A stretch of 64,000 bases of DNA from Lineus longissimus (taxonomy: Eukaryota > Nemertea > Pilidiophora > Heteronemertea > Lineidae), in assembly GCF_910592395.1 (NCBI RefSeq), contig NC_088313.1, positions 11,322,937 through 11,386,936 on the forward strand, read 5' to 3'. A program made the translations under genes and the position numbers. This document shows positions 30,901-64,000 of the stretch, piece by piece; the stretch's first letter is position 1; each line of letters starts with the position of its first letter. The notes under the pieces are model-generated. The model was not told the origin of the DNA, searched no databases, and saw nothing but the letters and a program-made list of their open reading frames with translations.

Positions 30901-32226
30901 AGAGTTTTGAATATCATAAAACGGAAAGTCATCAGAGATTACAATTTACCTTTTGAAGCACAACAATTCAAGGCAGCCCAACAGTCTTCTCCAAACTTTA
31001 AACCTATTTATGATTATCTGGCCTACCAAATTTTACCCAATTATAAGAAAGCAGCAAGAGTGATAATGCTTAGAGCAGAACAATATTTATTATGCAATGA
31101 TATTCTTTTCAGAATATTCTTTCCGTCTAATAGTGATCATTTCTGTTTTCAGCGTGTGATCCCTGACCAGTTCATTGATCCGTTGATAGCCAAGTATCAT
31201 GATTCTCTATTGAGCAATCACCAAGGTTGTGTTAGAACTTACCTCACAATGAGGAAATTGTTCTATTTTCATGGCATGTATCAACGCATTGTATCTTATA
31301 TCCAGTCTTGTGCTCAATGCCAGCAATTCAAAGGAAGAGCTGAAATGCTGAGGCCATTCCATGAGCGAATTCCTTTTGATTATTCACCATTTCAGACTAT
31401 TTCTTTAGATTTCAAGAAGATGGTGACGTCAAAATCGGGATATTCCTGGCTGATGGTTGTTACCTGTGCTATAACGAGATATACTGTGTGTGTTCCAATG
31501 AAGACATTGGATGCTCCAGCTATCAGTGAGGCCCTTATCCAGCGCGTATTTTGCTGTTATGGCATCCCAGATGTCCTAGTTACAGATGCCCAGTCGTCGT
31601 TGATAGGTAAAGTCATGGAGATTGTGTGTACTGCACTTGGTATCAGCCAGAAAGTTGTGTCTGTTATGAATCACGGTTCGCTACATGTAGAAAGACAGAT
31701 TAAATCAGTCGCTGATTTGATAAAAGTGAATTTAGATCAGTATGGTGACGATTGGATACAGTATCATTCGGTTGCGCAATACTCTTATAACACATTTTGT
31801 TCGCCCCAGTTAGGGAATCATTCCCCCTATTATTTGTTATTTTACAGGGAACCGAAAGATGTTAGTGGTTTAAATTTCAGGCCACTTTTGGGATTGACCA
31901 AGTCCCAACAGGAGTATATTGAACAGTTAAAACACCGATTTGATAGTGTATCTAAGTTCATGTTACAGTTGCAGGAACACCAGCAGAAAACCCAGAATGA
32001 GAAGATCTCACAACGATTGTCAAAGAGTCCAACATATGCCCAAGGACAGCTTGTTTATTTGCATAAACCCAGCAGTTCTAGTCTTAGATCCAATGCTAAG
32101 AAGTTCACTGCTAAGTATGTGGGTCCGTTTGTTGTTCATCAAGTGTTGGATCCTAGCCATGTATTGCTTGCAGATATCAAGGGTAGAATATTGAGAGATG
32201 TGTTTCATGTAAACCGATCGAATTAA
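27950..32226 (+). pseudogene. pol of the LTR retrotransposon (protease, RT, RNase H, integrase), one internal stop
   Basis: The frame is -1 relative to gag and overlaps its end, so frameshift expression is likely. The aspartic protease has LFDSGATSSLIS near 28105-28140. RT runs from ~28950; its first Asp region is followed at once by a TAA at 29269-29271, after which the same frame continues (LPMGMNMSPAKWQ). The catalytic pair reads IHDD instead of the usual aromatic-x-DD. RNase H (YSDTSRCATGSVLM, YVDHSSLVQM) is near 29920-30150. A long acidic/Pro-rich spacer occupies ~30300-30760. Integrase has an HHCC finger (CAQCQQFK, ~31310), a D,D,E core (SLDFKKM, VTDAQSS, LHVERQI) and a GPF-type C-terminus. 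The copy is probably not expressed as one polyprotein. Confidence 0.93.
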
Positions 32227-40444: not shown

Positions 40445-42759
40445 ATCATAGTCATAACTTGTTACTGTTACTCAGCCACTGTCCAACAATGGACCGGTTT
40501 CTTTTGCATAGTAACTGCTTAGATAATAAAAAGGCACTCAATTTGGTTAATACGAGCCAACCAGGCTTTTATCAATAATTTATCGCTTGTCTATAACAAG
40601 GCCTATTCGGTAACATCGGTAACATCGATTTCCCTTCATTGACAGTTAACCAACGCTGGTTGTCAAAAAGCTATTGTATGTATAGGTGGGCGTTCCTAGT
40701 GTGCTTTGGTGACCACCAATCAGAAGAAGGACCTTACATATGTATTCATCACAGCAGCGCAGCCCTGGTGGTAATGCTCGTGTAACCAATAGCATCAAAG
40801 TTAACAAGCATGGTACGTTGAATTAGGTACTTCTTAGGTTCCCGTCTGTCCCTAACGTTCTATCATGAGACAGACCTAATATACCCCGGACCTCAGGGAA
40901 CCTTCCGGTTCCCCTGTCGTCCGCTCCCCCGAGTACAAGCCCTTTGTACCCGCGGGAGCACCCTGCTTCCGGTCCGCCGATTGCAGTTCCGGTTACTGAC
41001 GCGGGTTCCCGTTTTTCAGTAACCGAAGACTCTACTGGGGGTTTTTCTCAGTCTTTACTGCGAAATAACCCCAGTCCTCACGGACACAGTAGAGTAGGGC
41101 CGGACCTTATAACGCCACCTCCGAAACGCCATGCGTCTTCGGTAACAGCGTTTCCGCCCTCCGTACCTCCTTCTAAAAGGGCTTCCGGTAGCTCCATACC
41201 GGCGAAGGAGTTACGGGCATTTCCGGTTTCGGACTTCGTCCTACCGGAAATGCAGGCACCTTCCTACGTTGGCCAACCTCTTGGGTGGAACCAACCGGAA
41301 GTGCCACCCCCTCCTCGTAGCAGAGGCGTCGTTCCCATGGAACGAGCTACGCAGAGAGGACATCTGAACTCTGGTTCAGAATATGGGCATCTTCCGCTTC
41401 CGGAAGACCCATTCGCCCGCACATACGGCTTCCAGGGTTCGCTTATGCGCTCACCCTCGCCTCAACCGCCCGTCGTTGAGAGAAGCCGCACGTCGGGTCC
41501 GGAACCCGAGTCGGGACAGCAACTGTCCCAGCTCATCCAGATGGTAGCAGGTCTTTCTGATAGACTCAGCCATCTGGAGCAGGGTTCCGGTTCCTCTGGT
41601 GCGCCTGGTCCCATCGGATACCCACCATCCGACTCCTCTATTTTAGAGGAATTTTCTGAGAACGAGAGTTCTCAGCCAGGCTACCGCTCCCCCAATCAGG
41701 AGGAGCTGTCACCAGAGGAGGCCAGTATCTTGTCGGATATGAGGACACTCAGATCCTTGATCAGAGCGTACCTCCCGCAGGATCTGTGCCCTACCCCGCC
41801 GGAACTGCCAGCCTTGTCAACACCGACCTTTTCACTCTGGGGACAGGAAGTGGATCCCAATCCACAGGTTTCTCAAGGCTCCACTCGGGCACTTGAATTC
41901 CTTCCTCCCTCCCCGTCGGTGGTAGCAGTCTCTGAACTTTTGGAGCGTACAATCAGAGACTCACAAGGCGCCCACCAACGTACTTCCATCCCTGTCCTTC
42001 CGGCAGTCGGACCGGAAGCTTGGTGTAAACCGGGGAAGTTGTTCACGGCACAACTTCCTCCCGTTAGGCAGTACCGCGCTGACTATTATCGAGTCAGCTC
42101 GGCCGGCTGTCCAGCTGCAGCATCGACTTCCATATTAAAGGACGATGTACAGTTGGACCAACTCGTGCCTAGGGTGACCTCCTCCTCGGCTTACCGAGAC
42201 CTTAGAGCACAAGAGGGTCTGGCCAAAAACACGTTAGCGGTGCTCTCCTACGCAGAGCACACTAACCTGGCCCTAGCCAGATCCCTAAAAGATAATGAGT
42301 CACTATCTGATGACACAAAATCGCTTGTGACATCCTTGTCACATTCGATTAGGCACGCTATTGCGCTGTCCGCCAAGACCGCAGCAAATAGCGTCCTACT
42401 CCGTAGAGACGCCGCACTGGGCTCTCTCAATGTCATCAGATCCCTCCAGCTGGAAGGGGCCTTAAGAACCGCTCCTATGGACGGTTCTTTCCTGTTCGCA
42501 GATTCTGTACAAGAGGCGGCTCAAGCACAGAAAGATTGGGACAAATTATATGCCCCCACTGCGACACAGAGGGCCAAGACCTCTCTACCTAACGCTAGAA
42601 AGATAGAGAGGCCCAAGTAGGCATCGGGTTCAATCCCGTACGCCAGGCAGGTCCTGCCTAGGCCTACCCCGACTAGTCAGCCTGCTCCTGCTGGATCCTT
42701 CCGACGGGAAGCGGAGGGTCGCCGGACTGGAAAGAGGAAAAATACTTCCTCTAACCAGG

Positions 42760-44922
42760 GTGGATCTGGTCCGACTAAGCACTCCTTTCGCCCAAGGGGT
42801 GCTGGCCGAAAGAGGTGACTCCCCCCTCCTTTCTCCTCCCGGACGCAAAAAGGAGCCGACTCCCGTAGTCGGGGGCCGTCTGCAAAAATTTGCAGACATT
42901 TGGGACGATTGGTGCCCAAAGGGGTCCCCAGTCCCAAACATGTTGAGGTACGGAGTGAAACTAGATTTCAACCGTACCCCCCCGACTACCATATATCCAA
43001 CCCCAGTTCAGCCACCGAAGGACCCAGTCAAGGCCTCTGCCCTCCAAGCAGAGGTCGCGACATTACTGGAGAAGCAAGCTATCCAGGTCCTTCAAGATCC
43101 ATGCTCCACCGGCTTTTACAGCCACGTTTTCTTGGTTCCCAAGAAAGCAGGGACATGGAGGCTGATCATAGACCTTTCCAGGTTAAACACCTTCTTGAAT
43201 GTTCCTCATTTCAAGATGGAAACCACCAGGTCTATAGCAACGGCGATACAGCCCAACGATTGGGCGGTATCGATGGATTTAATGGATGCGTACTTACATG
43301 TACCGATCCATCCAGACTATCAACACTTCCTTCGATTCCATTACGAAGGAAAGACGTATCAATTCAGGGCCCTGCCGTTCGGTCTGGCATCGGCACCCCT
43401 AATTTTTACGATGATAGTCACAGCCTTCGTCGCTCCCTTTCACGTGATGGGGTTCAAGCTCCATCACTACCTAGACGATTGGCTACTCCGTTGCAAATCG
43501 CGGGAACTACTACTGCAACAACTTCAGGTTCTAAAGCAAAAAGTAGTTTCCGCAGGTTGGATTATCAACGAAACAAAGTCAGAATTCATACCATCCCAAG
43601 ACTTCGTTTACGTTGGAGTTCGGTTCCTTACGGCCATAGGGAAAATGCTGCCCCCCTAGACAGGATAAAGAAAATTCTTCATCTCGTCGCAGAATTCAGA
43701 GGAAGGACTCAAGCTCCCGCAAGGCGATGCTTGAGCCTTTTGGGGACTTCTGAATTCGGCAGCAGACCAAATCCCCCTTGGCCGTCTATATATGCGTCCC
43801 ATCCAGATGTTTCTAATGTCTCTATGGAAACCCCACAGGGACCCATTAGACAAGTTGGTATTGATACCTCAATACCTACTCAAGAACGTCTGGAACTTCT
43901 GGGAATCGGAGACTCGTCTCCAAAGCGGTGTAGATCTTGCTCCACCGCCCCCAGAAGTGTCCCTGTTCACAGATGCTTCCCTACTAGGGTGGGGAGCACA
44001 TCTGAACAACGGGGACATGTCCGTAAGAGGTCTATGGACAAGGGAGGAGACCATTCTTCCAATAAATATATTGGAAATGAAGGCTGTCCTTCTTGCCGTG
44101 AGGGCTCTTTCCCTTCGCCTGAAGAATCGGAGAGTAACCCTGTTCTCCGACAATTCTACAGTAGTAGCATATGTCAGGAGACAGGGAGGCACAAAGTCCG
44201 GCATTCTTTGCCAGCTAACTTGGGAGCTTTACCATCTTTGTGCCGACCTTGGAGTATCGATATGTGCCAGACACATACCGGGCAATCGCAACATCCTTGC
44301 CGACGCCCTGTCCCGTCAGAACAAGCTAGTTCAGACAGAGTGGACACTCCATCAGGAGATTGTAGACGACCTTTGTCGCCTTTGGCGATCTCCGAAGGTA
44401 GATCTGTTCGCCACCAGGCTGAACAATCGCCTTCCCATCTATTACTCTCCACTTCCGGACGAAGAGGCCCTGGAAGTCGACAGCCTTACAGCCTCTTGGG
44501 TCGGGCTGAACGCATATGCGTTTCCACCCCTCCCTCTCATCCAACCAGTCCTGAACAAGATCTTGACCAGCCATCCGGTGAGAATAACTCTCATCGCACC
44601 TTGCTGGCTAAATCAGGCCTGGTTCCCAGCCTTGCTGGAGCTCCTGATAGATCACCCCAGGAGTCTTCCTACTTGGAAGCACCTCCTGTGGCACCCCCTG
44701 GGGAGATGCTACCACCAGAACCCTGGATTTTTCAAGTTTCACGCCTGGAACTTATCCAGTTGCATCTCCACCAGAGAGGCTTTTCGGACATCGCTGTCAA
44801 GCGCATGTCCGCACCTCAAAGGGGGTCTACCCTTGATGTGTATCAAGGAAAGTGGTCTACCTTCACTTCCTGGTGCAGGGAGAACGGAGTTAATCCGATC
44901 TCTCCCTCTATATACAGATTAG
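42760..44922 (+). pseudogene. DIRS reverse transcriptase - RNase H ORF
   Basis: RT spans ~42900-43650: WRLIIDLSRLNTFL, VSMDLMDAYLHVPIH, FRALPFGLASAPLIFT and the catalytic YLDDWLL. RNase H follows at ~43960-44330 (LFTDASLLGWGAHL, ILEMKAVLLAVRAL, LFSDNSTVVAYV, NILADALSRQN). The DIRS-specific C-terminal region comes next (PKVDLFATRLNNRLP, GLNAYAFPPLPLI, LIAPCWLNQAWFP). Frame 1 is broken at a C-run near 43650 (stop 43657-43659); the expected connecting sequence lies in frame 3 until ~43750, then returns to frame 1. Two compensating indels explain this. It overlaps the recombinase frame at its 3' end. Confidence 0.9.
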
Positions 44923-45812
44923 TTGATTTCCTTATTGAATTATTCACGGAAAGACAACTATCTGTCACGGCTATAAAAGGGTACAAGTCCGCCATCGCTT
45001 CTACCCTCCGTGTTTTAAGCACCTGGGATCTTCGTTGGGAGGACCAAATAACCCCTCTTTTCAGAGGAATGTTATTAGAGCGTCCTAGACCGGTTCACAA
45101 CACCCCTAAATGGGACCTTTCTGTTGTCCTTAAGGTGCTCATGAGGCATCCTTTTGAACCCATGTCTATTTCATCCATGAAATATCTGACACTCAAAACG
45201 GTCTTTCTAGTAGCCTTGGCTACCGCCCAACGGAGATCAGAGCTCCATGCACTTTCTTTTAAGAAGCTGGCTTTTAGAGAGGGAGGGGAGGTTATCCTGG
45301 CTTTTATACCAGGATTTCTGGCGAAGAACCAGGGACCGGCCGCCTCTCGGCCCCCGGTTACTATTCCCTCTCTGTCAGGAACGATCTCTTATGATCTTCC
45401 TGACAGAACTTTATGTCCCGTCAGGGCCCTAAAGTTCTACATAAATAGGACAAAACCTCCCGGTATCCGCCAGGGGAGAGAGCGTTTGTTTTTGTCCTAT
45501 AAGGAGGGAAATAAACGAGAGATAGCGGCCGCCACTATTTCAAGGTGGATTGTGGAGACTATTCGTCTTTCCTACAACACCTTGAAGACTTCCTCTGATC
45601 TTCGTGCGCTAGCTAACATCTCAGCGCACGAAGTTAGAGCACTAGCCACCTCCTGGGCTAACTACCGAGGAGTTGCTCTTCAAGAAGTCGTTTCCGCTGC
45701 ATGTTGGAGTAATCACTCCACATTCTCTCGTTTCTATCTACGAGACGTTTCTTCCCTCGTAGATGGCATGCACACAATCGGCCCGATTGTGTCTGCGGGG
45801 CATGTTGTTTGA
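44690..45812 (+). CDS. DIRS tyrosine recombinase
   Basis: The C-terminal third of a 970-codon open frame (42900-45812) is a tyrosine recombinase. An N-terminal SAM-like/core-binding region (STLDVYQGKWSTFTSWC, SVTAIKGYKSAIASTL) leads into the catalytic domain with Arg in TAQRRSELHAL, the HxxR box in SAHEVRALATSW and the nucleophile in STFSRFYLRDVS, ending at TGA 45812. It integrates the circular DNA form. The true start is uncertain: the frame stays open far upstream, across the RT region, where its translation is Ser/Arg/Pro-rich and looks like overprinting. No lesion is seen in the domain. Confidence 0.9.
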
Positions 45813-48941: not shown

Positions 48942-51360
48942 GGAGGTAGTGAATATGGCCCTGGTGATGACCCTGATGAATTCCAACCAGATGATATCCA
49001 AGAAAATCTCGCTAATGGTGCTGAAGAAAATAATGCTGGTGTTGCAGGTGTTGCAGAAAATATGGATTACAATGATGGTGTGCCTCATGAAATGGTAAGA
49101 TATTTAAACTAATGGCTCCACAAATAATATTGAATGAACGGTTTGATGGTTGAATACTTGAATTTAATTGCCAGTTCACTAGCAGTGGGCGGCATTTCGA
49201 GTTAATTAACCCCCCCCCCTGCAGTCTGTCTTGTGGGGGGGGGGGGGCAGTATTAGGAACCATGAGGAACTGGCAGACTGGTTGGGTGCGCTGCTGAGAA
49301 ATACAATTCAGGATGTCGGGCGGCCAGCATTATGAAGTAGTATGAAGACGTTATCTATTCTGCTGTTGATGGGGCAAATATTGAGCTGTCATGACTGAGT
49401 GACCGGCACACTGTGGTTTTAGATCCGCCAGTTCCTCATGAAAGCATTGGGAAAATACTTATCAGTATAAGTCGCCTAATCTTGTCTTTTTGAGAACCAT
49501 GCTTATACTACATTTCCAAATAATGAAAAAGAGGAAGCTGACTTCGTTTCACATGTTTGTATTTCAGATTACTACCTCAAACAATTACGAGAGGGTAAAA
49601 TATCTCAAGATGATTTCACTCTGATCTTAAATGTGGATGGTGTTCCACTCTTTTCTTCCAGCAAGGCATCCATGACTCCAATTCAATGTGCCCTTTTGGA
49701 GGTGAAAAATACTAGGAGTCAGATTTTTATGTGTGGTATGTGGTTTGGTGCAGAAAAGCCCAACACAGATGTTTTACTTGAACCTTTTGTAGATGAGTGT
49801 GGCACCCTCTCTGAAACAGGTGTGCAGTGGACAAACTCATTGGGCGAACAGGTTGTAACCAAAGTTCATCTTTTTGTTTGTACATCAGATGCTGTTGCCC
49901 GTCCAGTTCTTAGAAATTGCCAACAGTATAATGGTTATTTTGGTTGTGATTGGTGCTTGCAACGGGGAAGATATGTGCCGAAAGGAGGTGGAAATGTGAT
50001 GTGCTATCCTTACCAGGCTAATGCGGTGAAGCGGGTAAAGGTAGGATATGAACAAGATGCCTTAAGGGCTGTAAGAGAAAGAAACTTGATTAATGGTGTG
50101 AAGGGACCAAGTCTGCTGAGTTTACGTCCCACATTTGATATTGTGGAATCATTCGTGCCAGACTATATGCACTCGGTGCTTCTCGGTGTAATTCGATTTC
50201 TAGTTAATCTTTGGTTAGATCCAAAAAACGCTGCTGAGACCTACTATATTGATCTGGATGACCTTGCCAAAGTTAACCGTCGCCTCCTGAAAATCAAAGC
50301 ACCAACTGGCATTGCCAGGGCACCCAGATCTCTTGCAGAAAGAAAACATTGGAAAGCAACGGAGTGGCGAAATTTCCTCCTGTACTATTGCCTTCCAGTT
50401 CTTACAGGTGTGCTGCCAAGACCATATATTCAACATTTGTTCTTGTTGAGTAATTCAATAAATCTCCTTCTCCAAGATAAAATTCCACGAGATTCCCTTG
50501 TTGATATAGACCTTGCTCTCTGCAAGTTCGTGATAGGTATGGAAGATCTATATGGGGAAGAAAACTGCACGTTCAATGTTCATCAGCTAACACATATGGT
50601 GGATTCTGTGAGAAACTATGGGCCCATTTCAAATGTGTCCGCATTCATGTTTGAAGCGAATAATGGCAATTTGAAAAAAATGGTATCGGGAACACGCCAC
50701 ATTTCTTCACAAATTGCAGGCAAGTTCACTCTCTGGCGCAATCTCCCAGTCATGGCTAGGAAATGTCAAATTGAGCAGGCCAGAGTACCTGTACTAAATC
50801 TCTATGAACGTCTCCTAACTACAAAACGAAAGGTTCGCATATCTGTGCATATCAATGATGGATCAGTTGCTCTTGGTAGACCAAAAACGCGTGATCTAGA
50901 TGCTGCTGAGTTACTGGCTCTTGATACTTTTTTAGGGGTGATTGATGTTAGAATTCACAAGGTTAATTTCTACAAGAAGGTGTTGTTTGTTGGGATTGTG
51001 TATCAATCATCATCATATTGTGCTGGTTACAAGAGAGATAATTCTGTGGTACTGACAAATAATGGCACCTATGGTAGAATCAATGAAATGGTTGTTGTAG
51101 AAGTGTGTATTTGTGACAATGAATTGTGTCAGTGTGATCCACAGCCTATGCGTATTGTTTTCTTGAAAGAGTTCGCTGTACATTCTAGTCGCCTTTTCAC
51201 TGATAGGCAAGTAGGAATAACCCAATCAAGATTTCTTGCTACTGTAGCAGAAACAAATAGAACAATTGCTTGCAGAATATCTGATGTTCATAGAAAGTGT
51301 GTCCTTATGAGGATTGTTCCATCAGTATACGGCACCAATTATAAAGACAGAAGAAGGTGA
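48942..51360 (+). CDS. EnSpm/CACTA-like transposase (tnp2-type), two visible exons
   Basis: A 153 bp acidic exon (48942-49094; TTGATTACAG acceptor, GTAAGA donor) precedes a long exon from ~49568 (TTTGTATTTCAG acceptor) to TGA 51360. The long exon reads as a tnp2/DUF4218-type transposase: DFTLILNVDGVPLF, QIFMCGMWFGAEKP, a CDWC motif after CQQYNGYFG, the helical block FVPDYMHSVLLGVIRFL, and the DUF4218-like segment NVHQLTHMVDSVRNYG then FEANNGNLKKMVSG. Such enzymes excise CACTA elements. No CACTA termini were found within the window and the N-terminal zinc-finger exons are missing or in the poorly readable interval 49095-49567, so this may be incomplete. Intron 1 contains opposing C/G homopolymers at 49210-49247. 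Confidence 0.8.
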
Positions 51361-51878
51361 CTGAATAAACAGTTAATACTGTGTTAGCCCTGCTGTTACA
51401 TGATTGTGCTATGGTTTTTGTCCACGAAACCACTGTATAAAAACACTGACAGAATTGAAATACTGTGAAACCCTTTATTTTCATTGCCCTAAACTTTCAT
51501 GATATGGTAACTCATGACTTTTCCAATAAAAGTTGGCGATGACCATGGAAATATAATAGAAAATATGCATTTTAATACTACTAGAGAATTAATTTTCCCT
51601 TGATCGCAAAAACTTTTGTAAAATTCCCTCTGACCCCCTCTGTCCCGCCAGTCACCGTTACGATCAAGTCCCATTTATAAGGATTGTTACATCGTTTGCA
51701 TCTAATTCCTCTTGATATATTGAAAGACAAATGTGTTACGGGCACTTGGAGAGGGCCCTAGTGTGTTTCCTGAAAATACTAACATATTTTTACCTAGATT
51801 CATTTAGTCCTTGCAACTGGTGGGGCAGGCGAAATCCTACAGTATTGGGCTTGCAAAAATAAAGAGGGTTTCTTTTAT
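51361..51878. other. Non-coding; 3' flank of the CACTA-like gene
   Basis: ACTGTGAAACCCTTTATTTT at 51459 recurs inverted near 63588-63613, just outside the right 21 bp array. CAAAAATAAAGAGGGTTTC at 51854 lies just outside the left array and matches the same right-hand flank in direct orientation. A dispersed repeat therefore seems to abut both arrays. Confidence 0.5.
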
Positions 51879-52262
51879 GCGAGTTGCGAGTTGCGAGTTA
51901 CAAAGTGCGAGTTGCGAGTTACAAAGTGCGAGTTGCGAGTTAAAAAATGCGAGTTGCGAGTTACAAAGTGCGAGTTGCGAGTTAAAAAATGCGAGTTGCG
52001 AGTTACAAAGTGCGAGTTGCGAGTTAAAAAATGCGAGTTGCGAGTTACAAAGTGCGAGTTGCGAGTTAAAAAATGCGAGTTGCGAGTTACAAAGTGCGAG
52101 TTGCGAGTTAAAAAATGCGAGTTGCGAGTTACAAAGTGCGAGTTGCGAGTTAAAAAATGCGAGTTGCGAGTTACAAAGTGCGAGTTGCGAGTTACAAAAT
52201 GCGAGTTGCGAGTTACAAAGTGCGAGTTGCGAGTTACAAAGTGCGAGTTGCGAGTTACAAAG
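51879..52262 (+). repeat. Left inverted 21 bp minisatellite array
   Basis: About 18 units. Each is three heptamers: GCGAGTT, GCGAGTT, then ACAAAGT or AAAAAAT, with the two variants alternating over most of the array. Because 21 is a multiple of three, several frames stay open on both strands. These are not genes. Confidence 0.95.
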
Positions 52263-53320
52263 CAACTCCAGGTTCCGCCTCCTGAACATAATCAAGTATG
52301 GATGTCTTTATCAGTTATGGCTCTGGGTTGACCTCCTGTGGTGAAAGTTCAAGAATCTTTTTACAGCACATGTGGCATTACTTGGTATCAGTCCTGCACA
52401 AACAATAGTAAACATCACTGTGTACTACAGGATGTTGGTCCATTTTTAAATTAACCCAATCAACGCTATCAATGAACTGTTAGGCCATGGACCTTTGAAC
52501 TGTTAGGCCATGGACCTTTATACTATAAAGGTCCATGGGCATGGTATAGGCGTATATCGAATGAGTTTTCATTGCTGCAGATTACTAGGGTCAAATTTGC
52601 TCGTAATGGGCCTTAGCCCACAGGGCTCCAATTTTTAATTAATGGGCCTACTTTTAGTAACAAAACAATCATACATTTACAAAACAGGTTTCTTTTTATA
52701 ACAATATAAAATGTGGTTGTCAATGATCAACTGACATGACTGATATGACTGACAGACCCGTCCGTAATCTCACTTTGACAAGGCACTAGGCCTATATAGA
52801 GGCATATTGTGATAGCAAAGTCAAAGGCCAAGGCCAACTAATAACGGTAATGGGTTAATTCTAGCTATCGGGTATATTCCTTTCTAATGTCAATGATGTC
52901 CAGCTAGCTGCCCTTATATTAGTTAGACTGAACAATCTAGCCTCCAGTTTTTGGTTATTTTCCTAAAACTTTCCAACTAAAATTCTCAAGACCCTGCAAA
53001 AATCAGAAACAGTCAACATGTATGATGTCTATAAGACATGGAGCTTCACCAACATCACTGAAACTGTATACACCAGCTTATAAATGCACACTGTGTATCA
53101 AATCATAAACAGTCACCCAGCTGAGAAAAATTAGGGCTCACCAAGTGGCTGGTGATAAGGTTGATGAGATGGACCACTGACACATGTTTCAAGGACCATG
53201 ATCTTTGCAACTGGATATACATCAGCTGTAGCTTCAGGATAGCACCCATGATCCTTTCTGGCTTCTCACGTTGTTTTATTTGGCGTTTGGTGTTTCCAGC
53301 TTTGAATCCTGTCATTTTAT
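52263..53320. other. 5' region of the kinase-transposase gene
   Basis: No coding frame. CTGTTAGGCCATGGACCTTT is repeated twice at ~52479-52520 and followed by its partial inverse (AAAGGTCCATGG), forming a hairpin. The promoter of the downstream gene should lie here, but no TATA box was assigned. Confidence 0.5.
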
Positions 53321-54384
53321 GTGTACAAAATGTTCAAACTTCCATCAATCGGGATATCAAATAAACACGAGCCTTTGTTTGCTGGGATACCACGCTTTCG
53401 GTACCATGATCTCAAAGGAAAGGAGGAGATAGGCAGTGGCGGCTTTGGGAAAGTCTTGAAGTGTTGTCATTCTAATGAAACTGTGGCTGTTAAAGTATCA
53501 CATGAAGAGGATGATTATTCCATGCGGAACATGGCAAAGGAGGCACGACTTCTTCATGGACTTCGTAGTCCTCACATTGCCAATTTCAGATCAGTGTGCC
53601 TTGATCCGCCTTCCATAATGCTGGACTTCGAATGTTTCAGTTTTCGTCTTTTCGGTATTGATAGGGAATTCTATAACCTCAAAGAGTATCTGAATTTTCT
53701 GAACAAATTAGATGACGCGTCGTTCTTCTTCGAATTCCTTCCCAATACTTTGGACGACATTGTGCAAGGCCTCGGTTATCTCCATGGAAAGGGAGTGGCC
53801 CATCGGGATTTGAAGCCCCATAACATTCTAGTTTCGAACCAAAACTATGCTCATGTTCGAGCGGATGACCCTGGGTTCGCGCGTGTCTTTAAAGATCGAC
53901 CAATAACATGCAAATTGACCGATTTTGGAGAGAGTCGGTCAGACTTAATTCAGACTCGAACACTTGCAAATGCGAACACACGCACTGTTGAAAGAGGTAC
54001 GAATCCGTACCTTGCTCCAGAGGCAATAGTGCCAAGTCTAATGCTGAAATCTGCAACATCGGCTGATCTCTTCAAAATCGACATTTGGGCACTCGGCATG
54101 ACCATATTCGGCATTCTTAATCCAGGTCTCCCATTCCCGTTTCGCGAAGAATTCGAGGCTTTGCCGAAAGCAAAAGATGTTAGGGCTGACCCAACTGAGC
54201 AATTTAAGCAACACATCATAAATAAGCTTGAGAAAGGACAACGGCCCTCACCATCGATGAAGTATGCGAACCTCCAAAATACAGACTGGAGCAGTATAAG
54301 GAAAATATACAGGATGTGCACACTACAAAGCCCAGCAGCACGGCCGCTTGTTCAGGATATAATTCAGATGGTTCAGAACACAAG
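53321..54384 (+). other. Exon 1: protein kinase domain
   Basis: All main catalytic motifs are present: glycine loop IGSGGFGKV (about residues 37-45), VAVKVS with Lys58, a helix-C Glu near 74 (MAKEARLLHGL), HRDLKPHNILV with HRD at 161-163, DFGESR with DFG at 201-203, TNPYLAPEA with APE at 232-234, and IDIWALGMTIF. The family is Ser/Thr-like (Lys after HRDL; Leu-Ala-Pro-Glu). A subfamily could not be assigned. It looks catalytically competent. The exon ends CACAAG|GTAAGG; without splicing the frame would stop two bases later, which is why the last codons alone could suggest a complete gene. Confidence 0.92.
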
Positions 54385-57300
54385 GTAAGGCATTTTCATC
54401 CCGTAAACATCTCGGGTAAAATTCAATATAATTTGTGGTACGACTGGACATTGAGTATGGAGAATAACATTATAAAGACACATACATATCTATTTCAGGC
54501 ATCAAGGAAATTTAGGAAGTCATCATGCTGAGCAACCAGGGCCCAGTTACCTCGAAAGAAGGTCAGAAACAGCTGGGACTCATTGTGATGTAAACAGACC
54601 TCAACCAGGGCCGGATGATAGGTAACTAATAAAACTAATATATAACTATTTCAATCCCTGATGAAGCCCAAAAAAAAGTTTAATGGACCCTTGAAATGCA
54701 GTTTAAATGGCCATCAAACATTGTGTCAAATGAGTTCCATTATTTCATGTTTGCCAGGATGTGACATCTTTCATTAAATAGATATGAAGAAGAGCGGATA
54801 ACATATAAATATGTATTCGTATGTTACATGTGAAATATTTATTGATGTGTTATCCGGGTTCGACTTGAAGATTCCCGTCCATCAGAAAATAGATTCATCC
54901 GCTACAATTTATTATTGGTTGTAAATTGGTTCATTACCAGCGACATCGGGAGTCTTCCATTGAATATAAACAATAACTTCTTCGGTACCAAGTTAACTGA
55001 CGAAGTGGCCATCTTAATTGATCAACAGACAAACATGTTAATTTTTACAGAATTTAACATATTTCCACTGCCACCCCCCCCCCCCCCGAATCCAAACGCA
55101 GTCCATCACAACAATGCATATTTCCTATGGCTACTTGTACATTTCATGAACATAACCAAGATCCGTTATGCTTTCAGAAAGTCCTCTATCGTGCCAACAG
55201 AACCCAATTCTGACAATACCAATAACTTGACATTGGTAAGTAAATTATTTCTTTTGCTTTTTTGGGTTGATAGAACATCAGAGGCAGCCCTACAAAGAGA
55301 GAAATGACTAAAGTTTGTTAATTGTTGGGAGTTCTGACAAAAATATTAGCCCTAAACTCCCTTACTTGGCCTACAGCTCAGTCAACAGATAAATAGTCTA
55401 GTTGTTAGCTCACCTCTCAAGGCGAGCTTATACAATGACGTGGCGTCCGTCGTCGTCGTCCGTTGTCCGTTTATAGCGGAGCACGTTTCGTCACCGGTGG
55501 GCTATATATATGACTGAAATTCGGGTTACAAATTCATGACCAGGTCACCGCAGCGCACGTACCGAAAGGGTTTTAAGTCGCTTTTTTGTCATTAGTCTTT
55601 TAAATTTTATCTCTTTTCAGGTCGATTGGGAATATGTCGTTATGGGAGACTTTCACCAGGCCTCTGATAACATGTCTTATGACCAGTTTACTGGTTCACA
55701 GTGCAGTTCCATGTGTGTGATGGCGATAGTGTTTGCTCTTCTCGAAGCACCCGATGAGTGGACTAAATCAACAATTCACGAAATACTTATTCAGGGGAAC
55801 CAGGCACATGAAAAAGCACTGAGAGGACTAGGATGGCCAGAACTAAGGGCAGTCATGACAGTAGATATAGATGAGATTCCTGTCAACCAGTCTTGCATAG
55901 TCGATGGACAGCACATTGAAGCAAAAATTGATGTGTTAACTGGGGCAAAATTCGGATTTGATATGCAGGAAATACTAAATGACTCATTGCAGCCAACTTC
56001 TGATTGCTCATACGTGCTGAGAGTTGGTGATAGATCTAATGCGCTCTTGCGAGGACGGAATGGGACATGGTGTGTTTTTGACAGCCATGCCTGCGATGCA
56101 AATGGACAATGTGACCCAGACGGTAGCGCATGTCTTACAGTATTTGGATCAATAGGAAAGCTTGTCCGGAACCTCTCAAAACGATATCCTGATAATGGAC
56201 AGCAGATCGATTTGTTTCAAGTGGACGCAGTTATTTTGGCAGAACACGGTGAGTATTTAAGGTGATTTGATAACTGAATACCTGGGTCCTATCGCCTAGC
56301 TGTAGGATGCTTACAGTAACATAACATGCCGCTAGTTAGCTACTGGTCACACAATGATGTGCTAGACTTGGGATTGACGTGACAGCCTCCAATACAGACC
56401 CGAAGGAACGGGGCAGGGGGGGGGGGGGGGGTATAGGCTACGACTGGCATGACTTAATTCATATTGAATTTAAAGGCAAAATCTAAAACAGTAATCATTG
56501 CTTTCAGTTACTGGTCACAGAGAAAGCGAAGATAGAGAAGAGGGATCACTTGGTGGTGGTGGTGGTGGTGATGATACAGGTAAGATGATGTTATTCTTAT
56601 TGTATATTAGGTTCCCTATCGTCAAGGTTTGGAGTCATCTTGTTCAATCGTAGCGCACTATAGATGCATTTTGGCTTCTTTGTGTATACAGGTATTTTCC
56701 CTCAATGCAATGTCCCAGAGAAATTATAGTCCATCCCGATGGTCCATGGACCACGTGCATAGTTTGAGATCTTGAATGCCAGTTCATTGTGACCATGCAA
56801 TCCCCCTTTTAAAAAGGAGGACTGACTTCGTTTTGCGAGAAGTCACCAGTCGTTCGTTTCGAGCTCAGCTGTTTCTCACTTTTTATACAGACCAAAGGAG
56901 AAATGATATGAGGCCGCGATTAGGTGTCTTGAGTAGCATCATCAAGAGGCATTATGTATTGAATAACGCGTTTATAGATCCATGATTGAATGAATGAATG
57001 AAATCAGCTTATATATCGCCTTTCCAACGAAAACAATGTTCAAAATGTTCTTGGAGAGGAGAGTTCTCAAGTGTCTTCCGGAAGTTTCTTTCCTCAGGTC
57101 ATAGTTGCTCAGTGAGTTCCACATTCGTGGGGCATGCACTGAGAATGCCCTTACCCCAAATACAACATCATTTTGAGCTTTATCTCTAATTTTGTATTTA
57201 CAGGGTCCAACTCTATGGGAGGTGAGAGCATTCAAAAACATGACGAGCAGGATGTCCAGCTGTCATCAAGTTTAGAAAATGGACTTCAAAATGGACTTTC

Positions 57301-59883
57301 AGGTACTATATTTTGAATGTCTCAGGCAGTGCATGTTGTTTAAAAAAATGATGGAGATTTCAACTTTTGCATCCAGTAAATTTTGATAAATAAAAGGCTC
57401 TGGGGACTGCCAGATGGTGGCAACAGAAATAAACATTAACAATTAACATTTTAATTGATACCCCTGGATATTTGCCCTCTGTCCCGAAGGGCATTATCAT
57501 GCCACCTCTCTATCAATTTAAGAAATGTTAATATATACCTTGTGCCGGCAACCTGAAACAAAATTGCTCGGTCGAAGCTACCTTGGACATGATTGCCCGC
57601 TTATTTTTTGGTAACGCAGCGACCTGGCACACGATGTTGTCCTCCTGTAAAAGACACCAGCAAACTAGAACGCTAACGACGACATGGGACATGTTTTTTT
57701 CCTGGAACAACATGAGGCAACACAGAATTTGCTAAGGTTAATTAGTGCTTATGAAACACTTGGGTTTGATGATCAAATAGCTTCTTTCATATTTTTTTTC
57801 AGATGGGGTTTTGGTGCAGTCAAATGGTATGGTTACAGATTGCTTTGTCAGCTCCTCAAAGAAGAAAACATTCAAGAACACCAAGTATGATGTAAAGCAC
57901 TGGGCTAGGTGCCAAGCAAAGAAGGTAGACACGCTACCATTCGATATCAATGGTCTTCAAATTTACCAAATCCCTTGTGAAAAAAAGGAGGACATGATGA
58001 AAGTTGCAAGAGATGGGAGACCATGGGAGCGATACTGCAAAAGCTCAAGAGTCGGATTCAAAGGGACGCGGCGGATTGCACACTGCAGGGGTTCCCCAGT
58101 GTGCAGGAACAACGACTGTATGTACACTAAGATGTACGGATGTCAAAACAGACGACAATTTATAAAGGAAAATGGAACTTTTGTGTGTCGCACTTGCAGT
58201 ATGCCAGTGAATAAAATTGACTGCAACGCCACCAAAGTATGGGAATACTTCAAAGACCATGTTGTTGTTATGCATATCGGCGACCATACATGCGCAGCAA
58301 AGAAGCCGAAAATTTCGGTCGAATCGCTTAAGCTGGATATTCAGCAGAATCCAGGGATCAGGCCTAGTAATATTGTGAGTGGGAAAATGATGCAGATATT
58401 ATCATCAGAAGCTTTCAAATGGGAGGATTTGGAGGATGTGGCTGATAAGTACACGGACATGAAGCGGCTGCACAACGCAAAAGAACGACTGAAGAAAACT
58501 CTGTCCCCATATGGAGAGAATTTCGAAGCCCTTGCAGACTTTAAACAGAAATGTGACGAGAAAGACCGTTTTTTCATATTTAAGATCAACAACAGGGCCT
58601 TAAATGGTGAACATTCCTTTGTGTTCAAGTCAAGTTCTCAGATGGCAGAACTATGTCTCTCTATGGACAGGGACAATGATGGAATATTGGCAGAGGAGTA
58701 CGCATATGTTGATGGAAAACATGATCACTGTCGAGGTTATATCACCATTACGCTGTGGGTATACCATCCGGTCTTAAGGAGGGTTGTGCGGCTGGCAGTT
58801 TCAGATGCAGAGAAGGAAGACACCACCAATCTGACTACGTTCTGGCAAGTCCTCAATCAGATGCTGTCTGAGGCAGCTGGAAAGAGTGTAAAATTTAATC
58901 CATCTGGGTTCGTAGCGGATGAAAATCATGCAAATTGGAGGAGCATCAGCGATGTTTTTGGTCAAGATGCAATTCGTAGGACAGTCTCCTGTGAGTTTCA
59001 TTTCAAACAAAGCGTGCAGCGACATGCAAAGAAAGTATCGTCAGAGCATTGTGCACAGTTCATTGATATGGCACATGCTATGCTTACTGCATACACCATT
59101 CCTGAGTTCGACTCCGCATGTGAAAGGATGCAACAATTCAAAGAGAAGTACAGCGATCTGAAGAGTTGGTACAACTGGTGGTATCAGAGGCGAAGCCACA
59201 TATTCAGAGCCTTTAAACAGAGTGACGCCCCTGTGTCCAACCTGGCCGAGGTTGGGCACTCCAAGATGAGTAGTGCAAAACCAAAGATGTCCCTTTTAGA
59301 GGCCGCCCGGCAAGACGTCATTGACGCCATTCGGCAGGAAGCAGAGATCAACAGCTTTCAAGATGGTGGCTACAAGGGAGGAAGAGGAAGGTCTGTGAAC
59401 CAGAAGAATGCCGAAAGATTCCAAAAAGACAAGAAAAGAGTCGCAGAATATGGTCGAGAGTTGGACATTTACATCCCAAAGAAAGGAAGCCATCGGCCAC
59501 CTGAAGCAAAGAAAAGGAAAGTAAGTGCTCCTCCTACATGTGCGAAGAAAAGCGATGACCAGCCTCTCTCGGTATGCTTCTCAACACCCATTCCGAACCT
59601 GAAGTCATGCTATGGTTGCAAGAAAACATTTGCCATGAAGTACAAGAAGAAACCAGATGATGTCATTTTGAAAACGCACCTTAAGAGGAGATATGTGGCA
59701 AGTGGTGGTGAAGAATGTGTTGCCCCAAAGTCATCTGCAGCCTACTTCCACCTCAATATGAATTGTGTGCGGATTGAAAAACCGTACGCAGAACTGAATG
59801 AAATAATAATTCACAATGAAGTGAAATACCATTTAACAGAGGCCAACAAAAATGTGTTGAGAAACTTTGGCATAAATATATAA
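53321..59883 (+). CDS. Seven-exon fusion gene: protein kinase + C76-like cysteine protease + MULE transposase
   Basis: Exons: 53321-54384, 54499-54621, 55178-55235, 55621-56248, 56508-56579, 57204-57302 and 57803-59883 (TAA). All six introns are GT-AG and the phases (2, 2, 0, 1, 1, 1) match across every junction. The open frame of ~1,374 codons has no internal stop. Order: kinase 1-354; linker rich in Pro/His/Glu (exons 2-3); cysteine protease ~416-624; Gly/Ser/Glu linker with a GGGGGG run (exons 5-6); transposase ~683-1374. The linkers lack domain features but stay open, which supports the splice chain. The gene lies between inverted 21 bp arrays, so it probably belongs to a transposon. The transcript start may be upstream; ATG 53321 or 53330 is chosen as the first in frame. 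A separate kinase gene ending at exon 1 is the main alternative. Confidence 0.75.
55413..55500 (-). repeat. Inverted terminus of the AAACGTGCC repeat family in intron 3
   Basis: GCTCACCTCTCAAGGCGAGC, GTCGTCGTCGTCCG and GCACGTTTCGTCACCGG are the inverse of the terminal block at 5938-6012 and 10796-10880. Confidence 0.55.
55621..56248 (+). other. Exon 4: papain-like cysteine protease domain (C76/herpes-tegument-N-like)
   Basis: The exon begins after CTCTTTTCAG and ends GAACACG|GTGAGT. Predicted catalytic elements are a Gln-Cys pair in FTGSQCSSMCVMAIVFALL (Cys ~443 of the fusion) and an Asp-x-His in WCVFDSHACDANG (~569-571), followed by a DGSACLTVF strand. A ubiquitin-specific papain-like fold with this Q-C and D-x-H layout is known from the peptidase C76 family, and similar domains occur in many metazoan transposon proteins. 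The assignment rests on motif layout, not on a database search. OTU-like protease is an alternative. A ubiquitin- or UBL-deconjugating role is inference. Confidence 0.6.
56985..57200 (-). mobile_element. 3' fragment of a CR1/L2-type LINE in intron 5
   Basis: On the minus strand the frame reads a typical LINE RT C-terminus (NDVVFGVRAFSVHAPRMW, NSLSNYDLRKE), followed by sequence ending in an ATTC-type microsatellite (CATTCATTCATTCAATC at ~56985-57001). Only the last ~200 bp of a LINE are present, consistent with a 5'-truncated insertion into the intron between exons 5 and 6. Confidence 0.75.
57803..59883 (+). other. Exon 7: Mutator-like transposase with GCM1/WRKY-like zinc finger
   Basis: The exon opens after TTTTTTTTCAG. 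A Cys/His cluster (CRGSPVCRNNDCMY, GCQNRRQF, CRTCSMPVNKIDC, MHIGDHTC) resembles the WRKY-GCM1 zinc fingers found in MULE transposases. The nuclease core follows: AYVDGKHDHCRGY (first Asp), AVSDAEKEDTTNLTTFW, GFVADENHANW (second Asp), CEFHFKQS (the C-x2-H that precedes helical insertion) and SNLAEVGHSKM with a candidate Glu. A basic KKRK stretch could be a nuclear signal. The C-terminus has another Cys/His set (CYGCKKTF, HLKRRYVASGG, FHLNMNC). No lesion is seen in 692 codons. It should cut and reinsert the element's DNA. Confidence 0.88.
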
Positions 59884-60514
59884 TGTTCACATGGATAATT
59901 GATCAGTTTGTCCTTAGACAAAACAGTGACGGTCTGCCATCAAAATAGCATTTAGCATAACATTTAGGTTAGTGTCGATATGATGCACTTAGCTCATTTT
60001 CACATTACTAACTTTTGATACATGCACGTATATCATTTTGTTGCGCATAACTCAACATAACTTCAACATGAATGCAACTCGTCTGATGTATTTCATACCA
60101 AAGCAAGATAGGGATGAAATCACCATCAAAAAAACAAAATTAGGACATTTCTTGTGCATATTATAGACAACGGTGATTGAAAACTGGGGAAAGAAAGATG
60201 GGTTTTATATGACACAGTTTATGTCTGCCCTGATAACCCACTTTTGGGTACCGTATTTCTATTATCTACTGATCTAGGGACAGTTTCCAGGATCTGCTGT
60301 TCTGATCTCCTCCTTGGATTCAAGGTGAATCTGGGATAAGTAAAGTATTCGGTGGGTTCTACCATACTGCAAAAGAGAAGGAACACTTGTTTTGTTCGAT
60401 CCTCATACAGCATACTTTTTAAATTAAATTGTATTATAACTTGCATGTCATGTCACTTATTACACAATAGGTAATTTCACTTTTTATGTCGACCGCATGT
60501 TGTTTCATTATAGG
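59884..60514. other. 3' flank of the fusion gene, no gene recognised
   Basis: AT-rich, no coding frame with domain features. Presumed 3' UTR and interior of the mobile element. Confidence 0.45.
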
Positions 60515-61412
60515 ATGCAAAATGATTTTGTTACTCCTTTAATTTTCGAGAAGAAGTTTCCCCGGGGAGTTACGAAGTAATTTGAACAATATATCTATAA
60601 GCATTGCTATAACAAAGGAAGTAGTAACTTCATTTTCGATAATACACACACTAAAATACTCTACCTGAAAAATATACTAGTCAGATAATTACAAAGTTTG
60701 GTATTTTTCTAATTTTAATTTTCAAATACTTCTCTCCACATTGATAAAAAACTTACTTTGTTCGAATCCGCCAAGTAGTTTTGAAGCTAGCACCCTGAAC
60801 GACTTGGACATGACTGGTTTTACAGTAATTTTGTCACTCCTTCAACTTTCGAGCGGGAGCTTCCTTCAACTTTTGAGAAGGAATTTTCGAAGTTATTTGA
60901 ACAATACAACGTATATCTATAACAAATCTTTTCGATGATACACAAACTAAAATACTCTACCAGTCAAATCATTACAAAGTTTGGTATTTTTCTAATTTTA
61001 ATTTTCAAACACGTCTCTCTACATTGATAAAAACTTACTTTGTTGGAATCCGCCAAGTAGCTTTGAGGCTGGCACCCAACGACTTGGACATGACTGGTTT
61101 TACAGTAATTTTGTTATTCCTTCAACTTTCGAGAGGAAGTTTCCCTTTAACTTTCGAGAAGGAGTTTCGAAGTTATTTAAACAATAGGGGCCTATATCTA
61201 TAACAAAGTAAGTAGTAATTACATTTTCGATGATACACAAACTAAAATACTCTACTAGAAATATACCGGTCAGATTATTACGAAGTTTGGTATTTTTCTA
61301 ATTTTAATTTTCAAACACTTCTCTCCACATTGATAAAAAACTTACTTTGTTCGAATCCGCCAAGTAGCTTTAAGGCTAGCACCCGAACGACTTGGGAAAA
61401 ATGACTGGTTTT
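60515..61412. repeat. Three-copy ~290-300 bp tandem repeat
   Basis: Each unit holds CCTTTAACTTTCGAGAAG, a TTATTTGAACAATA word, GATGATACACAAACTAAAAT, CAAAGTTTGGTATTTTTCTA, TCTCCACATTGATAAAAA, and CTTACTTTGTTCGAATCCGC ending in GACTGGTTTTACA. Starts are near 60520, 60825 and 61110. It is a moderately diverged array within the candidate mobile element. Confidence 0.8.
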
Positions 61413-63001
61413 ACATTCTGTGAATGCCTCTTTGCATTGGTCATCTTATGACTGGGATTAATCGTTGGCTTGCTGAAAGGTTTAGGTTCAGGTTTGCAGT
61501 AAGCAATATTGCCAATGCTGATGCAAGGTTTTCAGAACATTTTTTTGAAATATATATGATTGTTGCTTAATATGAAGCATGGGCTGTATTGCACACGGTA
61601 ACAGGTGTGGACAACCCGCAAGGTATATAATATAAACCCAACATATGGGAGTTAGTCCAGAATCGTCTGCAGGAGTGTCTCCTCCCTTTCGTGCATCATT
61701 CATTTTGATGCACCGGACCGTCCTTTTATTCCTTGATTTATATACTGATTATTCTAAGATTGATCAGGCATAATGTCTGGTGCATTGGATTGTGCATTTC
61801 ACATTATATATCATAATAATTGTACCATTTCATGAAACTTCTACCTTGTGAACAGCCCCTTGTGCCAGAGTATCATTTTTATCGATTTATTGTTTGATTG
61901 GTATTTAATACTGGATCAATCATACCTGCTGATATACTGGTGCGATGGACTGGGCACATATAGGGTTCAGGGTTTTATTATCATTGTTATTGCTTTTTTT
62001 TCTCGTCTTGCTAGCCTTTCTGTTACTTACAGACCTGTCAGCAAATGTGTACAGAACTTATAAAAAGGTTTGGCCTAACTTTGTAAAGGACCAATCATAA
62101 AATGCAAAATTACTGTTCGTTTGAAAAATTGATCTTCTGCAATAAAGCCTATAATTCTCGACAAGCCCTCTTAATCTACTGTTGTAACATTATTGCCATG
62201 TCGATTCATTGTAGAAAAAAATCAAATTTATACTGATATGAATTTGTACTCTTAAGTTTTTTGCTCAATTTCATGCAAGGTGTTCCTCTGTGATCTGTGG
62301 TGGACAAAACAAACCAGTGTGCAGCCTGCCATTTGCTGGTCCCACTTGAATAAATTGTCCCTTTTTCAGCTGAGATACTCATATTATTATATTCAAAGAT
62401 CTATCCAAAAAGGAGATCTTCCCTATCATTGGGGCAGTTAAATCGATAGCAAAAGTACTCCCTTCCCTCTCCAAGCGCCCCATCACTGAGGACACGGAAA
62501 GTGATCCCTGAAGAACGTCATTCAGTAATCAACAAGCATAGCAATGAATGTCCCCCGTCGCTGTTGGGGTGTTTATTGAAAAATGTGTAGTTTGAAACCT
62601 CTCTGGGCAGTCTACCTTGAAACTGTGTCAGCGTAGGGATGTTCAAACACGAAATGGTCACAATCAGACATGTTCTGACTATGGGGCCATCCACTTAGTA
62701 TGTAAGCACTGCGGGGGGGTCTATGAATTTGGACCTCTAAAGTCGAGAATCAAACACGATCTGACGAATATTAAGCGAGTTCTAACACTTTAAGTGTTTT
62801 TGGTTTTGGCCCCCTGGTGGCCAACTCGAGAATCAAACTCGGCCGATTTTTCGACGTGACACACCTTTGGCCCGCCCTCTATCAGCAGACCAAATTTCAA
62901 CCCAAAATATTGTGTCGTTCAGAAGTTACAGAGGGGAAGGGAACAGCAGCGAGCGGCACCGCAGACTGTCGGGCTCAATAAGCTTAATCACTACCATCAA
63001 T
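61413..63001. other. Non-coding right interior of the candidate element
   Basis: No domain-bearing frame. TGGTTTTGGCCCCCTGGTGG near 62797 and the words around it are a partial copy of the ~300 bp repeat family of 9.9-10.8 kb. Confidence 0.45.
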
Positions 63002-63578
63002 CGCACTTTGTAACTCGCAACTCGCATTTTGTAACTCGCAACTCGCATTTTTTAACTCGCAACTCGCATTTTTTAACTCGCAACTCGCATTTTTTAACTC
63101 GCAACTCGCATTTTTTAACTCGCAACTCACACTTTGTAACTCGCAACTCGCATTTTGTAACTCGCAACTCGCACTTTGTAACTCACAACTCGCACTTTGT
63201 AACTCGCAACTCGCATTTTGTAACTCGCAACTCGCATTTTTTAACTCGCAACTCGCATTTTTTAACTCGCAACTCGCATTTTTTAACTCGCAACTCGCAC
63301 TTTGTAACTCGCAACTCGCACTTTGTAACTCGCAACTCGCACTTTGTAACTCGCAACTCGCATTTTGTAACTCGCAACTCGCATTTTTTAACTCGCAACT
63401 CGCACATTGTAACTCGCAACTCGCACTTTGTAACTCGCAACTCGCACTTTGTAACTCGCAACTCGCACTTTGTAACTCGCAACTCGCATTTTGTAACTCG
63501 CAACTCGCATTTTTTAACTCGCAACTCGCACATTGTAACTCGCAACTCGCATTTTGTAACTCGCAACTCGCAACTCGC
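63002..63578 (-). repeat. Right inverted 21 bp minisatellite array
   Basis: About 27 units of the same 21 bp repeat as at 51879-52262 but on the other strand (ACTCGCAACTCGC with CATTTTTTA, CACTTTGTA, CATTTTGTA and CACATTGTA variants). A larger-order period is visible: a block with CATTTT, CATTTTTT and CACATTG variants recurs, so the array also grew by block duplication. Confidence 0.95.
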
Positions 63579-64000
63579 ACTAAAGTAACACTCAAAAATA
63601 AAAGGGTTTCACAGTACATCATGGCTCTGCTCATCTTCATTGAAAGAGGGGCATTATTAATCGATTAATGCTCTCAGCATGCTCTCTGCGTCTGCATATT
63701 TGCGTGTCCGGTCTGTAACTCTGCAACTCTGAAAGATATTTGAGTAGAATTTCCATGGGTGATGTATCAGGTGACAAAGATGTGTCGTGGTGTAGAATCA
63801 GTCTGATCCAGAATTAAATTTTTGGCCAATAGGGGGTATTGTTACTCGGAAACAATGAGAATTGTAGTGGATGGGTATAAACATGTGCTATACATAATAA
63901 AAATACTACTAGTATATTGTATAACTTTTGAATTAAAAGAAGCTGGTATTCTGAAATATCTCCAATATCACCAATTCCAATGAAATGAAATCATTTTCAT
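63579..64000. other. Right flank, no gene recognised
   Basis: Begins with ACTCAAAAATAAAAGGGTTT, the flanking repeat also seen at 51459 (inverted) and 51854. The remainder is unremarkable and runs off the window. Confidence 0.45.

Follow-up and report, generated by a model that had tools for sequence, protein, structure and literature searches.

Introduction

Can an animal DNA transposon carry, besides the enzyme that moves it, enzymes that act on the signaling of its host? This question is raised by a gene in a stretch of 64,000 nucleotides from the nemertean Lineus longissimus (contig NC_088313.1 of assembly GCF_910592395.1, positions 11,322,937 to 11,386,936 of the forward strand; hereafter the window), in which an initial annotation had seen the fusion of a protein kinase, a C76-like cysteine protease and a Mutator-like transposase. 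DNA transposons are usually regarded as encoding little beyond their transposase, at most a protease or a helper that binds DNA. We consider it highly probable that the locus is a complete, recently mobile cut-and-paste transposon related to Mutator-like elements (MULEs) and IS256, and that its one gene encodes an N-terminal kinase, a viral tegument-like deubiquitinase (VTD) protease and a C-terminal zinc-finger and DDE transposase. The fusion claimed at the outset is borne out by the splice model, by single-frame homologues of the same order, by the element ends with their target-site duplication (TSD) and by the predicted fold of a relative. Furthermore, it spans several families and is thus wider than the single gene originally described.

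A gene of seven exons and three enzymatic domains

The gene model comprises seven exons on the forward strand (53330-59883), all with GT-AG borders and joined in phase to 4,116 nt, which encode 1,371 residues and a stop codon. The splice model thereby confirms the exon number, the borders and the matching phases first proposed. The frame is open as claimed; its length is 1,371 residues and not approximately 1,374 codons, and its ATG lies at 53330 and not at 53321. The domains are joined by four linkers, exon 2 (54499-54621, 123 bp), exon 3 (55178-55235, 58 bp), exon 5 (56508-56579, 72 bp, Gly-rich) and exon 6 (57204-57302, 99 bp), each with GT-AG borders and with the frame maintained. These sizes agree with the initial annotation, while its statement that every linker is open in a single phase fails for exon 5, where two of the three frames are open.

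Exon 1 (53330-54384) contains the start codon and the protein kinase domain, which matches PF00069 with an E-value of 4e-35. The Gly loop, K55 (the Lys of the VAIK motif), E71, D160 of HRD, D198 of DFG and the APE motif were all found, so that the kinase motifs are indeed intact. The same catalytic motifs were intact in all nine kinases checked, namely that of the window and those of eight database proteins.

VTD proteases have a layout of an oxyanion Q, a catalytic C and a D-x-H motif. Exon 4 (55621-56248) encodes a putative VTD-type cysteine protease or deubiquitinase domain, in which we located Q425, C440 and D566-S-H568, in agreement with the protease layout reported earlier. Pfam, which had been named beforehand as a check on exons 4 and 7, gave a weak match of exon 4 to PF04843 (Herpes_teg_N), with an E-value of 7.5e-4 for the exon alone and of 4.6e-4 (20.3 bits, below the curated cut-off of 25) within a set of four members. 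PF04843 was matched in all four aligned VTD members (best E 4.6e-4), and Q, C, D and H are invariant across them. Among PDB entries, exon 4 matched 8adb (E 0.84) and, as the sole match in the profile search, the Helitron VTD 8add (E 0.063); both are described as VTD structures in part of the source paper (PMC9741609). Prediction of its structure from the single sequence reached a predicted local distance difference test score of 36. Judged by its sequence, the domain is very likely a deubiquitinase.

The putative transposase is encoded by exon 7 (57803-59883, with the stop codon at 59881-59883), which begins with a Cys/His region resembling WRKY and GCM fingers and continues into a MULE-like core. 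In the D-D-E core of MULEs, a C(2)H motif sits between the second D and the E. The corresponding residues, D982, D1051, C1075-x2-H and E1161, are conserved in all 17 aligned transposase sequences, and the D,D,E core noted initially is therefore upheld. Exon 7 itself had no Pfam match at E<0.05. The predicted fold of a database relative, P0013, matches those of an IS256-type transposase (ISCth4; Z 13.8, root-mean-square deviation (rmsd) 8.9, 290 residues aligned), of WRKY/GCM fingers (WRKY; Z 8.1, rmsd 2.4, 73 aligned) and of VTD/AvrPphB-type proteases (M48 deubiquitinase, Z 9.9, rmsd 5.0, 162 aligned; Wc-VTD, Z 9.7, rmsd 4.1, 155 aligned).

A complete and recently mobile element

The gene is enclosed by an element of 11,730 bp (51864-63593, forward strand), the exact ends of which were set by comparing the flanks of its copies. 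It is bordered by a perfect 9-bp TSD, AAAAATAAA, present at 51855-51863 and identically at 63594-63602. The 5' terminus (51864-51883, forward strand), GAGGGTTTCTTTTATGCGAG, is the same in the copies C8a and C13a, where the flanks diverge, and the 3' terminus (63574-63593, reverse strand), ending in ...CTAAAGTAACACTC, is the same in C8a, C13a and C6b; by hand count, 16 of 20 bases match between the 5' and the inverted 3' terminus. Subterminal arrays are built from a 21-bp unit, with 18 copies on the left (51885-52262, forward strand; Tandem Repeats Finder) and 27 copies of the same unit, inverted, on the right (63001-63572, reverse strand). The inverted match between the two arrays amounts to 93-96%. 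Neither the element ends nor these arrays had been noted in the initial annotation.

In the genome of the window itself (391 Mb, 30 contigs), copies of the transposase exon at 99% were found on contigs C13 and C8. C8a matches the window at 98.8% identity along 11,531 bp, a stretch that begins within one array and ends within the other. C13a reaches 99.2% along 7,151 bp but lacks the 3' part and has additional sequence following its left end, and the partial copy C6b on contig C6 is 96.7-98.3% identical over the right half. C8a has a TSD of 8 bp and C13a one of 8-9 bp with one single-base indel; a range of 8-11 bp is given for MULEs in part of a survey (PMC6446971). The window copy is open throughout, and the others carry indels, C8a in exons 2, 4 and 7 and C13a in exon 7 close to the 3' end, at the point where it ceases to match the window. 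Substitution types between copies are near neutral; hence the comparison indicates recent movement and not current selection, which is not shown by the counts.

Approximately 500 bp upstream of the element ends a frame of 626 residues (49480-51360, forward strand) with a weak match to Transposase_21 (CACTA tnp2; E 1.4e-5, below the curated cut-off), which is possibly a nested insertion.

The element ends bear directly on whether the gene could be a host gene, in which an immune-type kinase gene happened to become joined to an inserted transposase and was retained for the host. Such events have a precedent, since part of one paper (PMC8195603) reports metazoan TRADD-N immune genes that are fused to Mutator/MULE transposons, and the top PDB match of the kinase is RIPK1, with only 51 bits. 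In detail, RIPK1 scored 51.5 and MLK4 50.3 bits among the best 60 of 812 phmmer matches, a gap too small to separate them. Against domestication, terminal repeats and a perfect TSD enclose the gene, near-identical copies lie at other sites, and the kinases of other elements, described below, score 155-200 BLASTP bits against that of the window, compared with 51 phmmer bits for the best PDB kinase. We regard domestication as very improbable, and a fixed host gene is disfavoured by the element ends, the TSDs and the dispersed copies. Since the kinase scores higher against those of other elements and has no close solved relative, it has probably had a long history within transposons, as far as sequence scores can tell.

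Homologues in other genomes

A search with the whole protein retrieved one protein, P0001, of 1,379 residues in a single uninterrupted frame. By BLASTP only its kinase (35% identical) and its transposase (48% identical) aligned to the window; the unaligned middle region contains the motifs NACSF and DTH. A search with the P0001 transposase gave 16 proteins including P0001. Co-occurrence of kinase and transposase in homologues had been set beforehand as the comparison on which the fusion should stand or fall, and eight of these 16 carry a kinase ahead of the transposase in one open frame. Six of the nine kinase proteins keep the C and the D-x-H of the middle domain, which is degenerate in P0011 and, by eye, apparently missing in P0003 and P0009. 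The joining of unrelated exons as an artefact of the gene model could be argued from the short linkers and from the two open frames of exon 5; however, single-frame fusions in homologues, a second family in the same genome and conserved splice borders speak against it and leave it next to no probability. For the domain combination, the artefact was rejected because of the homologous single-frame fusions. The combination is real and, going by the aligned frames, apparently resides in one protein, while the exact linker exons are less certain.

A further search with the transposase alignment gave 73 proteins, 60 of them new. These include P0060 from the crinoid Anneissia japonica, which is 52% identical over window residues 446-1023, covering the end of the VTD and the transposase, as well as P0044 and P0067, relatives from Oculina patagonica and Dendronephthya gigantea. 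PF10551 (MULE) was matched weakly by two of the 16 homologues (best E 0.032) and by five of the 60 further relatives (best E 2.6e-4). Six of these 60 relatives carry SWIM fingers. Relatives were found neither in viral contigs nor in contigs of prokaryote genomes.

A transposase tree was built from 67 rows, comprising those database proteins whose cores were long enough (64 of 76) together with P0060, the window and C20, a locus of the same genome described below. All ten kinase-bearing rows belong to a single 28-row clade (support 99/96), in which the window transposase pairs with that of the crinoid P0060 (100/95) and next with C20 (100/100).

The homologues also inform on the role of the middle domain. 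The window VTD and the P0001-type domain are linked by their common layout and by the fold of P0013 and not by sequence, since their profile match is negligible (probability 0.4%, E 0.14). In a profile comparison with the PDB, the P0001-type domain matched the GTPase Der and designed proteins, and Pfam gave no match for three of four P0001-type middle domains and one at chance level for the fourth. The cysteine protease might instead be a processing enzyme, which cuts a polyprotein into kinase and transposase and is no deubiquitinase. This is unlikely, because tested VTDs of the same layout include active deubiquitinases, according to part of the Helitron study (PMC9741609), and because P0003 and P0009 would then lack the cutting domain. 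In addition, related transposases carry OTU proteases (PF02338) instead, in two of the 60 further relatives (best E 5e-7), which points to ubiquitin and not to self-cleavage.

OTU or OTU-like N-terminal domains were seen in P0044 and P0056 (by eye) and in P0073 (by database label), that is, another class of deubiquitinase at the same place.

Further families in the genome and exchange of the module

Three further loci of the same genome, C20, C8b and C15, carry the domains in the same order, with kinases 33-34%, VTDs 60% and transposases 47-59% identical to those of the window. They are 98-99% identical to one another over shared stretches of more than 1 kb. Intact kinase frames are present in C8b and C15; the one in C20 is cut at the start and has DFS in place of DFG. 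C8b (contig C8, 13570089-13589614) has termini of the same kind as the window element, GAGTGTTGC... and ...GAAACCCTC, and a 9-bp TSD matching at eight of nine positions. In this family, the phases at the VTD exon borders and at the acceptor of the transposase exon are the same as in the window; the donor phase of the kinase differs.

The subterminal arrays of the C8b family use AACTTGCA units and those of the window AACTCGCA units; the array unit evolves along with the element.

Searching the genome with the kinase gave 37 matches. On C3, a kinase and a protease share one frame of 614 residues; near-identical kinases lie on C11 and C13, and C8 has a similar match at 15.8 Mb. The VTD that comes after the kinase on C14 shares 41% identity with that of the window (PF04843 E 3.8e-4), and a kinase near-identical to the one on C14 lies on C1. 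A further transposase frame, not alignable to the window transposase, follows approximately 4.8 kb past the protease at C3 and 2 kb past it at C14. Both matched PF10551 below its cut-off (E 8.9e-5 and 2.6e-4) and represent another MULE-like lineage; a SWIM-like CQC...CKH motif was seen in them by eye, for which Pfam gave no call. Because the domain order recurs, we infer that the kinase, protease and transposase of C3 and C14 move together.

The loci L044/L046 (on C3) and L045/L047 (on C14) are families separate from that of the window.

These loci also bear on the view that the transposon holds two genes, in which the kinase transcript ends after exon 1, the VTD and transposase share a separate transcript and the joint frame is fortuitous. 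Linker exons 2, 3, 5 and 6 are short and have no clear counterpart in the alignment, in which the middle region of the window is itself poorly aligned; moreover, the kinase and VTD exons of C8b, C15 and C20 lie approximately 4 kb apart, with the differing kinase donor phase mentioned above. Yet half of the 16 homologues hold kinase and transposase in one uninterrupted frame, as C3 does for kinase and protease, and we judge two separate genes to be quite unlikely.

In a kinase tree, which included three of the four further loci tried, the window kinase groups with those of C14, C1, C3, C11 and C13 (100/100) and apart from C8b and C15. Since the transposases of the window and C20 are close kin, this split points to an exchange of the kinase-protease part between elements. 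On these trees, the module seems to have been shuffled between elements. Beside two different MULE-like transposases the kinase and protease occur as a pair, most of their catalytic residues being intact, and we therefore read them as one accessory module.

Several observations weigh against a single, shared and exchanged architecture. Within the transposase clade the kinase label is scattered, requiring eight changes, a number equalled by 41 of 500 shuffles. Truncation of many of the proteins can explain the scatter, and the kinase is present in all eight database proteins in which 430 residues or more precede the transposase core; in P0013, where 413 precede it, the kinase is absent. The kinase is absent from the labels of the 60 further relatives and from the Pfam families listed for them (25 of 27), most of these proteins having little sequence ahead of the core. 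The PF04843 label of P0060 was not reproduced by our own scan at E<=0.1, because its VTD is cut short. Finally, nine of the 13 inner branches of the kinase tree are open.

A proposed mode of action

For the complete element we envisage the following sequence of events. The finger region would bind the terminal arrays, and the DDE core would excise and insert the element with a 9-bp stagger. The VTD may free the transposase, or proteins that partner with it, of ubiquitin chains and thus shield them from the proteasome, as part of the Helitron study proposes for the VTDs of those elements (PMC9741609). The kinase could phosphorylate the transposase, or a silencing or damage-signaling protein of the host. 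Together, the two enzymes might form an accessory module by which the element better withstands control by the host. The early suggestion that they control transposition of the element itself or allow escape from host turnover is plausible.

A more far-reaching idea, which we advance tentatively and would not favor over its negation, is that a signaling kinase and a VTD deubiquitinase form a portable module for counter-defence in animal DNA transposons. This module would be swapped among MULE lineages and would act on a host pathway, such as innate immunity, silencing or damage signaling, to keep the element alive, a strategy like that of large DNA viruses with their kinases and tegument deubiquitinases.

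Relation to known systems

With MULEs, as characterized in part of the survey (PMC6446971), the window element shares long terminal repeats and a TSD within the usual size range. Mutator-like elements with Ulp1 and Ginger1 elements with OTU or Ulp1, covered by part of the Ginger paper (PMC2836005), resemble it in that their DDE transposase is fused to a cysteine protease acting in the ubiquitin/SUMO system; unlike in these, the protease of the window is VTD-type, N-terminal and preceded by a full protein kinase. Helitrons and Helentrons with VTDs, reported in part of PMC9741609, likewise combine a VTD deubiquitinase and its D-x-H motif with a DNA transposon, although they are rolling-circle elements with a Rep-helicase, whereas the window element is of the DDE cut-and-paste type. 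Cnidarian VTDs fused to transposon-associated domains are mentioned in the same partial source (PMC9741609).

The MULE-like Rehavkus group, again from part of the survey (PMC6446971), also has a 9-bp TSD and a minisatellite near a terminus. There, the minisatellite lies before the 3' terminal inverted repeat and a PHD finger is present, whereas the window element has arrays at both ends and Pfam detected no PHD finger in exon 7 at E<=1, a search that short fingers can escape. The TRADD-N fusions resemble it as immune-type genes joined to a metazoan MULE transposase; they differ in contributing an adaptor domain and, in part of the source, are treated as conflict-related genes (PMC8195603), a paper in which no search for "kinase" was made. 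The word "kinase" is absent from the main texts of the MULE survey (PMC6446971), the Ginger paper (PMC2836005) and an arthropod survey (PMC13359780), as are "kinase" and "Mutator" from that of PMC9741609. An open-literature search with kinase terms, with subscription papers and Repbase outside its scope, named no kinase-transposase fusion among the matches listed. New here is therefore the MULE-type element with a kinase-VTD module; proteases in Mutator and Ginger1 elements and VTDs in Helitrons were already known.

Other features of the window

Frames for a retroviral-type protease, reverse transcriptase, RNase H and integrase at 27931-32226 (forward strand) constitute a Ty3/gypsy-like element. 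A frame at 13156-14259 (reverse strand) with a starch-binding CBM_21 domain (E 9.5e-32) is probably a host glycogen-targeting gene. Two frames of 583 and 997 codons (40869-42620 and 42819-45812, forward strand), in a G+C-rich stretch (50-52%), had no Pfam match at E<=0.001.

Implications

Diverged families retain a kinase with intact catalytic residues together with a deubiquitinase-type protease, and the pair is found close to transposases of two lineages; this suggests active manipulation of host signaling by some eukaryotic transposons. Similarly, the shared make-up among relatives suggests that some jumping genes bring their own signaling enzymes. Whether animal cut-and-paste elements have dedicated anti-host functions is a long-standing question, which thereby becomes testable with defined proteins. 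Such elements may also provide a possible route for kinase-deubiquitinase sets between genomes and into viruses.

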